Source: a virus. From it: a stretch of 43,784 bases of DNA. The translations under genes and the position numbers were made by a program. The notes beneath the pieces were generated by a model, which made no database searches, was not told the origin of the DNA, and saw nothing but the letters and a program-made list of their open reading frames with translations. The stretch lies in IMG/VR virus record IMGVR_UViG_3300009509_000092, positions 1-43,784 of that record. One strand, written 5' to 3'. The first letter of the stretch is position 1, and every line of letters starts with the position of its first letter. Of this stretch, positions 754 through 3,914 are shown in pieces.

Positions 754-1134
754 TCAATCTTTCAACTTCTGCGGCGGGTCGTATCTCAGCACTTGCTCTC
801 GCAGTTGGAAAAAACCATCAAGCTCTGGCTGCTGGGCCATGACCAGCCTCGAATAGTAAGCGGTATAATTGTTGTTGAGCTTAAAGTTGTCGTCGCCCAT
901 GGTCTGTATCGCGTACATCCAGCGGAGCCGCTCGAAGATCATCTTCATACCGCAGCGTCGAAAACCCATGTCTTTAAGTCCGAGGGAGATCCTTAGTATC
1001 GCCGTGTAAACGTGCGGGTTCGCCGAATGGAACGCCTCGAATTGCTTCTCCATGACCCCCTTGTAGCCGGGTTCTACCGTCGGCATTAAAGGGAATTCGG
1101 TTTGTGCAAGATCTGCTAAAGCTTCATTTTGCAT
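754..1134 (-). CDS. Conserved phage protein of unknown function
   Basis: A 126-residue protein. The core reads FHSANPHVYTAILRISLGL, then RRCGMKMIFERLRW and then FKLNNNYTAYYSRLVM. I recall this pattern (an F-x-x-NP-x-VY opening and a later NNNY motif) as a small protein conserved in many unrelated phages and prophages, often near replication or endonuclease genes, with no established function. It looks soluble and mainly helical, without cysteine clusters or membrane segments. The start at 1134 is supported by AAAGGAG about ten bases upstream, and the gene overlaps the end of the helicase-loader gene by 19 bp, which suggests coupling. Confidence 0.75.
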   Translation of the reverse strand: MQNEALADLAQTEFPLMPTVEPGYKGVMEKQFEAFHSANPHVYTAILRISLGLKDMGFRRCGMKMIFERLRWMYAIQTMGDDNFKLNNNYTAYYSRLVMAQQPELDGFFQLREQVLRYDPPQKLKD

Positions 1135-1796
1135 TGGCTACCTACTCCTTTCCTGAGAATTTCTGTTAACTCAACAGCAAGACCGCGCTCGACTATACGA
1201 TCGATTATCCGCTGGTCATAGCGCGGGGCAAGCTTATCTGGAGAGAAGTTCGAGGTGATAATGGTGAAAAGCTGGTGGTTGTGCCGATGGCTGATAATAT
1301 TTTCGAGCCTGTGATGGTTTCTCGTCTCCTGACCCAGATCATCCAATAGCAACACGCCACGACGAAGACTGAGCCGCTCGAATTCTTTTAGCGCGTCAAG
1401 ATCGAGAGAGTCACTGTATTCCTTGGCAGGGAGAAAATAACAGCTATTGCCGGGGAAGTCTGGACTGTTCACCATACTGATCAGTAACCTGCACGCCGAA
1501 ACGGTTTTGCCAGTTCCGCGCCGTCCAAACAGATAAAGGAAGTTGCCGCCAAGGTCTGAGATCGACCGCAGGGCTTTCTTCGCTGCCTGGTAAGCGTGCG
1601 TATTCTCCCATCTGTTCTCAATTATCCCCTTTTCATACGCAGGGATATGGGAGTTTGCCAGAGCTTCCCGGCGAGCTCTTCCTTGCTCCTCGCGCTCCCA
1701 TTGCTGCCTTTTGCGCTCATGGTCGGCGTTATTGATGTAGCGGTTTTCAATATTCGCCATCAACTCCTTGAGCGTCGTCCCAATGTGGTCAGTCAT
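1116..1796 (-). CDS. DnaC-like helicase loader (AAA+ ATPase)
   Basis: A 226-residue AAA+ protein when started at the ATG at 1796, which has a strong GAGGAG site 6 bases upstream. A longer reading to 1832 is open but lacks such a site. Walker A is GRRGTGKT (residues 91-98), Walker B is VLLLDD (148-153), sensor I is TIITSNFS (178-185), and arginines in IIDRIVERG could provide the finger. The N-terminal 60 residues are charged and helical, as in DnaC/DnaI-type loaders that contact the host helicase. It overlaps the replication initiator gene by 8 bp. Likely job: load host DnaB at the phage origin. The DnaC-like call is solid; which host helicase it uses is unknown. Confidence 0.87.
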   Translation of the reverse strand: MTDHIGTTLKELMANIENRYINNADHERKRQQWEREEQGRARREALANSHIPAYEKGIIENRWENTHAYQAAKKALRSISDLGGNFLYLFGRRGTGKTVSACRLLISMVNSPDFPGNSCYFLPAKEYSDSLDLDALKEFERLSLRRGVLLLDDLGQETRNHHRLENIISHRHNHQLFTIITSNFSPDKLAPRYDQRIIDRIVERGLAVELTEILRKGVGSQCKMKL

Positions 1797-2703
1797 TGGT
1801 GATCTCCTCGGGGTCTGGGTCAGGTTCATCATCGGCTGAAAAAATTATCATTCCCATTTCTCGGCATTTTCTGACACCCTCCTTGCGCTCCTCGTCCGTC
1901 TGCTCTCCTGGTCTTGAACATTTACGGCATTCATCTTCAAGGCGATCCCAATGCTTCCTCAGAGCAGCCCCGGACTGGATATTTGGCGGCCAGAAAGGAT
2001 CGCTTGGAAGCCAGCGCAACACGGCGTCTATCCTATCCATGCTGATCCCGTCTTTTTCGTGAAGCTTGCGAATATCCTCAGACCATTTGGTAAGTACTTT
2101 AGAGTATGCCTCCTCACTGGCTACTCTATGATCTGACTTATACGCTAGTATGGACTCCCTAAGCCTATCTGCTCTAGAGGTATAGGCTGGAGAAAGAGAG
2201 ACTAAAGATCTTTTTCTTTTCTTTGTTCTGTTATGTTCTGTTCTGTTATGTTCTGTTCTGTTAGCGTTACTTTCGTTACAGAGCGTTTCTGTAACGCCAT
2301 TGAAACGGTCTGTAACGCTTGTAACGTTACACTTATCCTTTTCCCTGTGTCGTTTAACCCTTTCATATGACTCGCTTCTCTGGTATTCATGCCAGTCGTG
2401 AATGATGTAACCGACACCATTATCATCTTCTATTCTGGTGATCAGTCCGGCCATTTCAGCACTTTCCATGCCTTCGGCAATCGCGCAGATATAAAAATCA
2501 GGCCATTCCGTTTCGCGATCAAAACGGGTGTGCTCACCGATGAAATCTGCCGACCACATATCAACCGATAGCCTGCCATCCTTGAGGTCATGGTCTTTGG
2601 CTATCTCCCAGGCCGCCTTGATGACAACTATCCCCCAAGCTCCTGCCTGTTTCATCTTGGGATGGCGGTTGCAGTTAGCATCGACTCTTAACCACTTGCT
2701 CAT
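1789..2703 (-). CDS. Replication initiator, lambda O-like or DnaD/DnaT-like
   Basis: A 304-residue protein from the ATG at 2703, which overlaps the preceding stop as ATGA. The N-terminal half (starting MSKWLRVDANCNRHPK, with IIHDWHEYQRS near 100-109) resembles the winged-helix part of phage replisome-organiser proteins. The C-terminal half contains VLRWLPSDPFWPPNIQSGAA, typical of these initiators. Residues 148-160 are a short tandem repeat (EHNRT units) encoded by an exact 15-bp DNA repeat, followed by a basic KKRKR linker. The helicase loader follows immediately, the same order as lambda O-P. The repeats may be origin binding sites within the gene. The function is well supported by context, less by motif. 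Confidence 0.78.
   Translation of the reverse strand: MSKWLRVDANCNRHPKMKQAGAWGIVVIKAAWEIAKDHDLKDGRLSVDMWSADFIGEHTRFDRETEWPDFYICAIAEGMESAEMAGLITRIEDDNGVGYIIHDWHEYQRSESYERVKRHREKDKCNVTSVTDRFNGVTETLCNESNANRTEHNRTEHNRTKKRKRSLVSLSPAYTSRADRLRESILAYKSDHRVASEEAYSKVLTKWSEDIRKLHEKDGISMDRIDAVLRWLPSDPFWPPNIQSGAALRKHWDRLEDECRKCSRPGEQTDEERKEGVRKCREMGMIIFSADDEPDPDPEEITND
2225..2330. repeat. Iteron-like repeat cluster within the initiator gene (candidate origin)
   Basis: At 2225-2263 a 15-bp unit (GTTCTGTTATGTTCT) is present 2.6 times without mismatch. Next to it, 2265-2330 holds six copies of the hexamer GTAACG or its complement: 2265-2270, 2274-2279, 2291-2296, 2312-2317, 2321-2326 and 2325-2330. The last two form the 10-bp palindrome GTAACGTTAC. 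Clusters of short iterated sites within an O-like initiator gene are the arrangement of lambdoid origins, so initiator binding is a reasonable inference. The 15-bp repeat keeps the reading frame (five codons per unit). Confidence 0.55.
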
Positions 2704-2912
2704 GGTGTCACTACCCATCGCTGGGCATCTTTATCAAAGCTCACCTTGCCCAGATCTCGCAGCTCGAATAGATGGGAGGCTATACTCCTGACGGGCTCTC
2801 TGAAAGCATTCGCCAGGTGGGTCATCGAGCAGCCCTTCGAATTATCTGTCAGCGTCGAGAGTATCTTCGCCTTGATGCTTCTTGCAGGCGAGAGCCATTC
2901 GTTTGATCTCAT
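2700..2912 (-). CDS. Small winged-helix DNA-binding protein
   Basis: From the ATG at 2912 this is a 70-residue protein with the layout of a single winged helix: ARSIKAKILSTLTD (helix 1), CSMTHLANAFREPVRSIASH (helix-turn-helix) and FELRDLGKVSFD with QRWVV (wing). The frame is open to a TTG at 2999. The 2912 start has a GAGG site at suitable spacing, and the promoter-like site at 3006-3036 would start transcription near 2998. First gene of the minus-strand replication operon, coupled to the initiator by ATGA. Likely a transcription or replication regulator. No sequence-level family name is recognised. Confidence 0.65.
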   Translation of the reverse strand: MRSNEWLSPARSIKAKILSTLTDNSKGCSMTHLANAFREPVRSIASHLFELRDLGKVSFDKDAQRWVVTP

Positions 2913-3036: not shown

Positions 3037-3215
3037 CTCGCCCAAAGTGTGAACCCTCATACTACATCAGCTAACATCGAGTCAAGACAATAACCGCAGA
3101 TTTTATTGGGGGAGCTATTGCTTAGAGAAAGAAACTCAGTCAGGCCAACTCTGAGAACGTGCAACAGCTTGAAATTATTAGATAAAAAACCGCATTATAC
3201 ATCGCAAAAATGTGA
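3037..3215. other. Divergent intergenic region, no gene seen
   Basis: The 265-bp gap between the two divergent transcription units (3000-3264) is A+T-rich towards its right end. I see no coding frame and no convincing long dyad in the central part. Short, weak inverted repeats (CTCAG/CTGAG near 3136-3155) could be operator half-sites but are too short to claim. Confidence 0.4.
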
Positions 3216-3245
3216 TTGATTGTCATCTCCAATATGATGTAATAT
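3216..3245 (+). promoter_or_regulatory. Candidate sigma70-type promoter for the plus-strand early genes
   Basis: TTGATT (3216-3221) and TAATAT (3240-3245) with an 18-base spacer, followed by a strong AAAGGAGG ribosome site at 3253-3260 and the ATG at 3265. Spacing and position fit a promoter for the 3265-6755 operon. Confidence 0.55.
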
Positions 3246-3264
3246 ATAAGGTAAAGGAGGCGAA

Positions 3265-3447
3265 ATGAGCCGAAAAGTGAAAATCAAAAAAAAACAAATC
3301 AACATCGAGTTGGAGGCAGAGCTTGTCGAGCAAATCGTCAAGTTTGCAAAGTGTCATAGACTTCATCTCACGCAGAAACAAGCATTGCTTGAACTGATAA
3401 GGATCGGCTTATCAGTGAGCGAAGTCGGGGAAGGGGTGATGCAATGA
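3265..3447 (+). CDS. Small ribbon-helix-helix-like DNA-binding protein
   Basis: A 60-residue basic protein. INIELEAELVEQIVKFA gives a strand and first helix, and KQALLELIRIGLS the second helix, the pattern of Arc/CopG-type ribbon-helix-helix repressors. It is the first gene after a promoter-like site and has a near-perfect AAAGGAGG ribosome site. Its stop overlaps the next start (ATGA). The C-terminal domain of the next gene's HNH protein has a similar sequence pattern. Probably an autoregulator or early-gene repressor; targets unknown. Confidence 0.65.
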   Translation: MSRKVKIKKKQINIELEAELVEQIVKFAKCHRLHLTQKQALLELIRIGLSVSEVGEGVMQ

Positions 3448-3914
3448 AACTTGAAATTATTCCGACAAAAGAATTAATTGAAAAATTTATGAGAAATGTA
3501 ACGAAGGGCGAGTGTTGGGAGTGGGGAAAGGGAGACGGCAATTATGGGACATTTAGCATTTCGAAGAACAGGACCATAGGGGCGCACCGCGTGAGTTACG
3601 CTTTATTCGTTGGACCAGTGCCAGATAAAATGCAGGTTTGTCACAGATGTGACAACCCATCATGCGTCAAGCCCGATCACCTTTTCCTCGGAACCCAGAA
3701 AGATAACATGCGCGATATGAGAGATAAGAAAAGTCGAGGCTACTCTAATCCGGTTCTCAAAGGGAAAAAGAAACATGTAATATTGACGCTTCCCGAGATA
3801 CACGTGGAACAGATTGACAAATTGGCAATGTTTTTTGAAGAACTACCCAGACGAAAGGCGATTCTGATGCTCATCAAGCGAGGTCTGGATAACTCGCCAG
3901 AACTGAAAGAATAA
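3444..3914 (+). CDS. HNH endonuclease with C-terminal ribbon-helix-helix-like domain
   Basis: A 156-residue protein. Residues 47-92 contain AHRVSYALFVG, then VCHRCDNPSCVKPDHLFLGT and the helix KDNMRDM, the signature of the HNH_3-type phage and homing endonucleases, with His/Cys zinc-like ligands C66, H67, C69, C74 and H79. The N-terminal part with CWEWGKG and GNYGTFSI is also typical of this family. Residues 110-150 (VEQIDKLAMFF, then RRKAILMLIKRGLD) align with the ribbon-helix-helix protein encoded just upstream, suggesting a DNA-binding tail gained by local duplication or recombination. Could be a free-standing homing nuclease or a regulated nicking enzyme. Nuclease fold is confident, target is not known. 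Confidence 0.85.
   Translation: MKLEIIPTKELIEKFMRNVTKGECWEWGKGDGNYGTFSISKNRTIGAHRVSYALFVGPVPDKMQVCHRCDNPSCVKPDHLFLGTQKDNMRDMRDKKSRGYSNPVLKGKKKHVILTLPEIHVEQIDKLAMFFEELPRRKAILMLIKRGLDNSPELKE

Follow-up and report, generated by a model that had tools for sequence, protein, structure and literature searches.

In bacteriophage lambda the replication origin lies inside gene O: initiator-binding iterons and an AT-rich tract occupy the central part of the gene, and the helicase-loading partner is encoded beside it (PMC7466680). The oriL origin of phage SPP1, recognized by gp38, is likewise contained in the initiator gene, where direct repeats accompany an unwinding element, and is served by a replisome organizer and a loader (PMC6316719). 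In RepA_N origins such as that of pSK41, the origin is located in the part of the initiator gene that encodes the linker and is bound by the N-terminal domain (PMC5703833; for a PLE satellite, PMC7145576), and in pPR9, a chimeric plasmid related to the RepA_N group, the N-domain and the origin have been exchanged together while the C-domain stays (PMC5703833).

The locus and its repeated words

The window, meaning the whole 43,784-bp viral record that was analysed, contains a gene whose product matches the DnaD-like replisome organizer profiles (PHROG 2514 and 4880). The gene for a helicase-loading partner adjoins it, and an easily unwound tract (2190-2249) is found beside a cluster of short words in its middle. 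Positions 2190-2330 are very probably a phage origin inside this initiator gene, with a probability of roughly 0.86. The features of the locus are the following:

1116..1832, minus strand: DnaC-like helicase loader gene, overlapping the initiator gene (PHROG 50, E 3.3e-28)
1789..2718, minus strand: initiator gene, DnaD-like or O-like replisome organizer of 309 aa (PHROG 2514, E 1.2e-20; PHROG 4880, E 2.8e-17)
1864..2211, minus strand: C-terminal domain, homologous to that of the phiEf11, VEsP-1, BH1, LBR48 and IME197 initiators; its proposed role is recruitment of the helicase or of its loader
2190..2263, unstranded: tract of low duplex stability adjoining the sites, a proposed DNA unwinding element
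2224..2263, unstranded: 15-bp (5-bp based) direct repeat array whose minus strand encodes NRTEHNRTEHNRT; it falls within the proposed unwinding element (repeat analysis)
2265..2330, unstranded: six GTAACG words, proposed initiator-binding sites or iterons (exact copies; distant initiators carry this word at the corresponding place)
2344..2361, minus strand: RVKRHR (residues 120-125), a hexapeptide within a basic helix that is proposed to set specificity (no other N-domain column predicts the word as well as its position 2; both models show a helix here)
2344..2703, minus strand: N-terminal winged-helix domain, residues 6-125, proposed DNA-binding domain (AlphaFold2 pLDDT 89.6; N-domain relatives L056 and L098)

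The start codon of the initiator may be the second methionine, at 2703. The protein has no match in a Pfam search, and its N-domain remains without a match to PF09681 (Phage_rep_org_N) even at E 0.1; the link to this family is seen only through alignments and intermediates, the domain appearing too diverged for a match. A Pfam match to RepA_N (PF06970) is also lacking, and a fold search returned generic winged helices, none at E 1e-3. With neither a PF09681 nor a RepA_N match, the protein is filed as a DnaD-like initiator that would work like the members of those systems. Close relatives of the initiator were found neither in the viral contigs nor in the genome contigs, so that conservation was judged on distant ones, and the loader has no close relative in the viral contigs. 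An HNH endonuclease gene (HNH_3, E 3e-14; 3444-3914, plus strand) adjoins the replication operon just past the divergent intergenic region.

An exact word search places GTAACG at 2265-2270 (-), 2274-2279 (-), 2291-2296 (+), 2312-2317 (+), 2321-2326 (+) and 2325-2330 (-), the last two copies overlapping to give the 10-bp palindrome GTAACGTTAC at 2321-2330. Together the words form a dyad whose 28-nt arms (2262-2289 and 2302-2329) are 82% complementary. At the window-wide rate 0.033 sites are expected per 66 bp, and the Poisson probability of at least six is about 2e-12. Outside the cluster the window holds 18 further copies of GTAACG, against about 8 expected window-wide by shuffling. The initial annotation, which had described six GTAACG words and a 10-bp palindrome clustered in an initiator gene beside a helicase loader, was thus borne out by the word search and by the PHROG 2514 and PHROG 50 matches. 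Its proposal of an origin is supported by a word-only scan, by the tie of the word to the N-domain, by the weak tract and by the layout of lambda and SPP1. The GC skew that it had suggested as a check is uninformative, since the cumulative minimum, at 3095, coincides with a switch in gene direction and says nothing on the origin.

Association of the word with the N-domain and its residues

When 2.9 million viral contigs were scanned for GTAACGTTAC with two further copies of GTAACG after it at short gaps, at least 120 stretches matched. Among the matches listed, the open reading frames over these stretches are mostly initiators, in which the matches cluster near the middle of the gene, and a minority are tail genes coding for GNVT repeats and small terminase genes. 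Of the 112 proteins scanned from the listed matches and the window, Phage_rep_org_N was matched by 69 and a DnaD-like PHROG by 76; among the listed matches the nearest to the window N-domain are L056 (E 4e-14) and L098 (E 5e-9), both found by the DNA word alone. The 10-bp palindrome is present in 76 of 80 dereplicated genes, and in all 80 the sites fall into two or more frame and orientation classes.

The scan also matched genes of other kinds. Clusters of GTAACGTTAC occur in small-terminase-like genes (L040:4403-5233, L044:407-1348, L048:12319-13167, L052:3700-4503 and L058:1835-2638), where they sit in the linker just behind an N-terminal helix-turn-helix, at a relative position of about 0.2; these could be a packaging site inside the gene or a by-product of coding for NVT. 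GNVTGNVT coding repeats in tail or structural ORFs (L008, L027, L054, L061 and L107) yield further GTAACGTTAC pattern matches, and tail-gene GNVT repeats are the main background of such a word scan.

Two gene sets were recruited without reference to the word. In the first, recruited by the C-terminal domain alone, 14 genes with a WIK-type N-domain have 6-7 GTAACG and 66 with other N-domains have 0-2 (Fisher P 7e-16, which overstates independence because many of the 14 are near-identical). A natural swap is seen between phiEf11, with seven GTAACG, and IME197, with none, their C-domains being about 95% identical and their N-domains unrelated. In the second set, recruited by the rep_org_N domain and reduced to 61 genes at 70% identity, more genes repeat GTAACG than any other hexamer, 36 of the 61 having three or more copies. 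From these comparisons, the GTAACG cluster appears to go with this kind of N-terminal winged-helix domain and not with the C-domain. The initial annotation had named replicating relatives without the repeats as evidence against an origin; such relatives do occur, but nearly always with a changed N-domain or changed specificity residues, and many of those without GTAACG carry another word in the same place.

Two loci differ in what their linkers contain. The initiator gene of Lactobacillus phage BH1 (L004:1749-2546) encodes another N-domain, and its linker likewise carries a repeat, here the 11-bp GAACAGCTACC in 3.5 copies, which is a candidate for another type of origin. In a rep_org_N initiator at L286:3001 onward, the linker holds an HNH-nuclease-like stretch (CAYCGN...DHLIPKSHGG...CCKRCN) and only two GTCACG, which is a possible nuclease insertion into the origin region.

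The word varies with the hexapeptide aligned to the window's RVKRHR. R-V/Q-x-x-H/Y/F-R/K pairs with GTAACG, R-K-Q-x-Q/E-R with GTCACG and R-T-x-x-Y-R with GTGACG, and the window, with V at residue 121 and GTAACG in its linker, obeys the rule. In the second word-blind set, Fisher tests on tables counted by eye give P 2e-10 for V/Q versus GTAACG and P 7e-7 for K versus GTCACG. Position 2 of the hexapeptide is the N-domain column most informative on the word (0.97 bits, permutation-corrected, in 117 dereplicated domains); next come positions 5 and 3, in that order, and then the residue four places ahead of position 2. The profile that locates the hexapeptide draws in part on the same genes, window included. 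In a tree control built without the specificity columns, in which independent pairs were counted, concordant to discordant pairs numbered 10:0 for K with GTCACG (P 0.002), 11:0 for V or Q with GTAACG (P 0.001) and about 5:0 for GTGACG with T, M, S or N (P 0.06).

The K and T predictions were written down before two new pattern scans, for clusters of GTCACG and of GTGACG. The N-domain was found just upstream at 85 of 120 GTCACG loci, with K at position 2 in 77 of these, and at 26 of 120 GTGACG loci, with T in 16 and M, S, A, Q or K in the rest; most GTGACG clusters are not beside a recognised N-domain. In the GTAACG scan, among the matches listed, the N-domain was present at 82 of 120 loci, V or Q occupying the position in 79. 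The K rule held strongly, and the T rule, which had predicted T or N, is looser, as only 16 of the 26 carry T. The rule yields a prediction for sixteen named phages and plasmids, and when phiEf11 and VEsP-1, the source of the idea, are left out, 13 of the remaining 14 agree, including Staphylococcus phi11, 52A and StB20 and Listeria, pneumococcal, Acinetobacter and Pseudomonas phages; the sole miss is a Brevibacillus plasmid (RVANHR, one GTAACG). Further exceptions are L246 (RVAKHR, three GTAACA) and L152 (RVKAYR, no GTAACG), and 17 of 135 domains in the pooled set are without any word in three or more copies, three of them having V and three Q. Taken at the level of sequence, these results suggest that a few amino acids of the initiator predict its DNA word.

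Two further residue and word combinations were observed. Plasmids with N at position 2, L538 (Vagococcus), L539 (Bacillus paramobilis) and L540 (Enterococcus faecium), bear GTCACG and GTGACG in ratios of 4:4, 4:5 and 3:3, respectively, and two RQKKWY initiators, L240 and L261, carry CTAACG (4 and 6 copies) replacing GTAACG, the first base of the word being changed.

In the AlphaFold2 model of the window N-domain, the winged helix (pLDDT 89.6) is followed by a helix at 111-127 that holds the hexapeptide (115-120, model numbering), and in the model of a rep_org_N member a helix at 106-131 holds columns 119-124. Specificity columns 116, 120 and 123 (i, i+4, i+7) are spaced such that they would fall on one helix face. 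Searches of solved structures gave nothing below E 0.06 by sequence and nothing at E 1e-3 by fold. The basic region of eukaryotic bZIP proteins has the form N-x-x-A-A-x-x-C-R, and plant bZIPs read ACGT-core palindromes, the sites described here likewise being palindromes with an ACGT core. Together with the conserved arginines 119 and 124, columns 116, 120 and 123 repeat the spacing of the bZIP basic region in the predicted helix. We tentatively propose, as a possibility that is more doubtful than not, that the initiators of a large group of tailed phages and phage-plasmids recognize a single word family, GTNACG (palindrome GTNACGTNAC), by means of a bZIP-spaced basic helix behind the winged helix, which would constitute a convergent origin-recognition code. 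The code part of this reading appears well supported by covariation, and the putative bZIP-like geometry is drawn from the spacing, the predicted helix and the features of bZIPs given above. In the open-access literature, covered mostly at the level of titles and abstracts, the GTNACG word with its residue code was not found, and older subscription papers may hold single cases; at the same level of coverage, GTAACGTTAC appeared only in unrelated papers.

The proposed origin and competing explanations

What the sequence shows is the weak tract and the words themselves, which are more numerous than the protein requires and go with both the N-domain and residue 121 (V); from these we infer binding, melting, loading and replication as follows. 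Positions 2190-2330 would form a theta-type origin in the sequence coding for the linker between the two initiator domains. The N-terminal winged-helix domain and its terminal basic helix would bind the six GTAACG words, probably as dimers on palindromic or paired sites, and crowding of the initiator on these words would strain and open the adjacent weak tract at 2190-2263. The C-terminal domain and the DnaC-like loader from the adjoining gene would then place the host helicase. A search for binding, melting or replication data on the window protein or any family member found none, and the few V/Q genes without GTAACG and the GTGACG clusters, mostly without a recognised N-domain, count against this reading.

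It is improbable that the initiator binds the cluster for autoregulation, partition or copy control while replication starts elsewhere. The association of the word with the N-domain would be expected for binding sites of any function, and a still weaker AT-rich stretch is present between the divergent operons (about 3170-3250), but the sites lie inside a coding region, not at a promoter, and are found beside a weak tract in many unrelated genomes, in the same layout that is the origin in lambda, SPP1 and RepA_N plasmids. Near the GTAACG sites the weakest 60-mer, 2190-2249, ranks 127 of 43,725 for low duplex stability and overlaps part of the repeat array. In 86% of the 80 dereplicated genes, the 60 nt past the last site are weaker than the upstream coding DNA, with mean stabilities over the 80 genes of -1.23 versus -1.38 kcal/mol per step.

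The perfect 15-bp repeat described by the initial annotation was recovered at 2224-2263 with a period of 15, 2.7 copies and 100% matches (alternatively readable as a 5-bp TGTTC/A array, 88%), coding in the protein frame as had been stated, and an exact search found no copy of the array elsewhere. That these repeats, rather than GTAACG, are the iterons bound by the initiator is very improbable. They are perfect direct repeats adjoining the words, and the BH1 linker is filled by the 11-bp repeat GAACAGCTACC, but the BH1 N-domain is unrelated, and the array varies among genes that share the constant word GTAACG, being AGATAAAGATAT in both phiEf11 and VEsP-1. The 15-bp repeat as a binding site was rejected on this difference between genes with the same word. 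Since other initiators carry different arrays there, the array is probably an unwinding element rather than a binding site; of the binding sequence first proposed, the GTAACG words are retained as likely sites and the repeats are better read as an easily melted tract.

Coding constraints were assessed by randomisation. When codons are sampled from operon usage without changing the protein, the linker holds a mean of 1.0 GTAACG and reaches six in 1 of 20,000 trials (P 5e-5); when the gene's own codons are permuted, the mean is 1.3 and six are reached in 3 of 20,000 (P 1.5e-4). The sites are read as CNV, CNE and SNA in one orientation and as NVT, SVT and GVT in the other, and their placement in two reading frames means that the repeating unit is a DNA word and not one peptide. 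The least probable explanation, that a preference for an NVT-type peptide in the linker, coded by GTTAC, produced the words incidentally, can draw on the NVT and VT peptides common in these linkers and on the chance matches given by tail-gene GNVT repeats, but it is opposed by the several frames and both orientations seen in 80 of 80 genes, by the loss of sites on synonymous recoding and by a third base that varies with a residue elsewhere in the protein, and the codon randomisation with the protein fixed led to its rejection. By these measures the six GTAACG words appear to exceed what protein coding needs, and the question raised earlier, whether the sites are conserved beyond the need of the protein, receives a positive answer from the word-blind sets, the residue code and the codon randomisation.

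Comparison with described origins

To our knowledge, the origins of most phages are unmapped. If an origin inside the initiator gene read through this residue code is true, the origin site and word of phages and phage-plasmids would be predictable from the initiator sequence, incompatibility between elements could be guessed, and the recognition code could be tested by simple binding assays. The joint exchange of N-domain and origin would also explain how mosaic phages could change origins while keeping helicase loading.

The window shares with lambda the placement of sites and a weak tract in the middle of the initiator gene and an adjoining gene for the loading partner, but it has short GTAACG words, six in number and in both orientations, with a 10-bp palindrome, as well as a DnaD-like protein and a DnaC-like AAA loader. 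To SPP1 oriL it is likened by layout, with repeats and an unwinding element in the initiator gene and a loader, whereas SPP1 possesses a further origin, oriR, and no second one was found in the window. RepA_N plasmids have in common with the origin proposed here its place in the linker and the joint exchange of N-domain and origin, but differ in their site sequences, and the window lacks a RepA_N match. The PF09681 initiators (phiEf11, phi11, 52A and others) share layout, word family and hexapeptide position with the window, although its N-domain is too diverged to match PF09681. The layout of the locus would be of a known type in itself, and what appears new by comparison is the word family together with the residue code.
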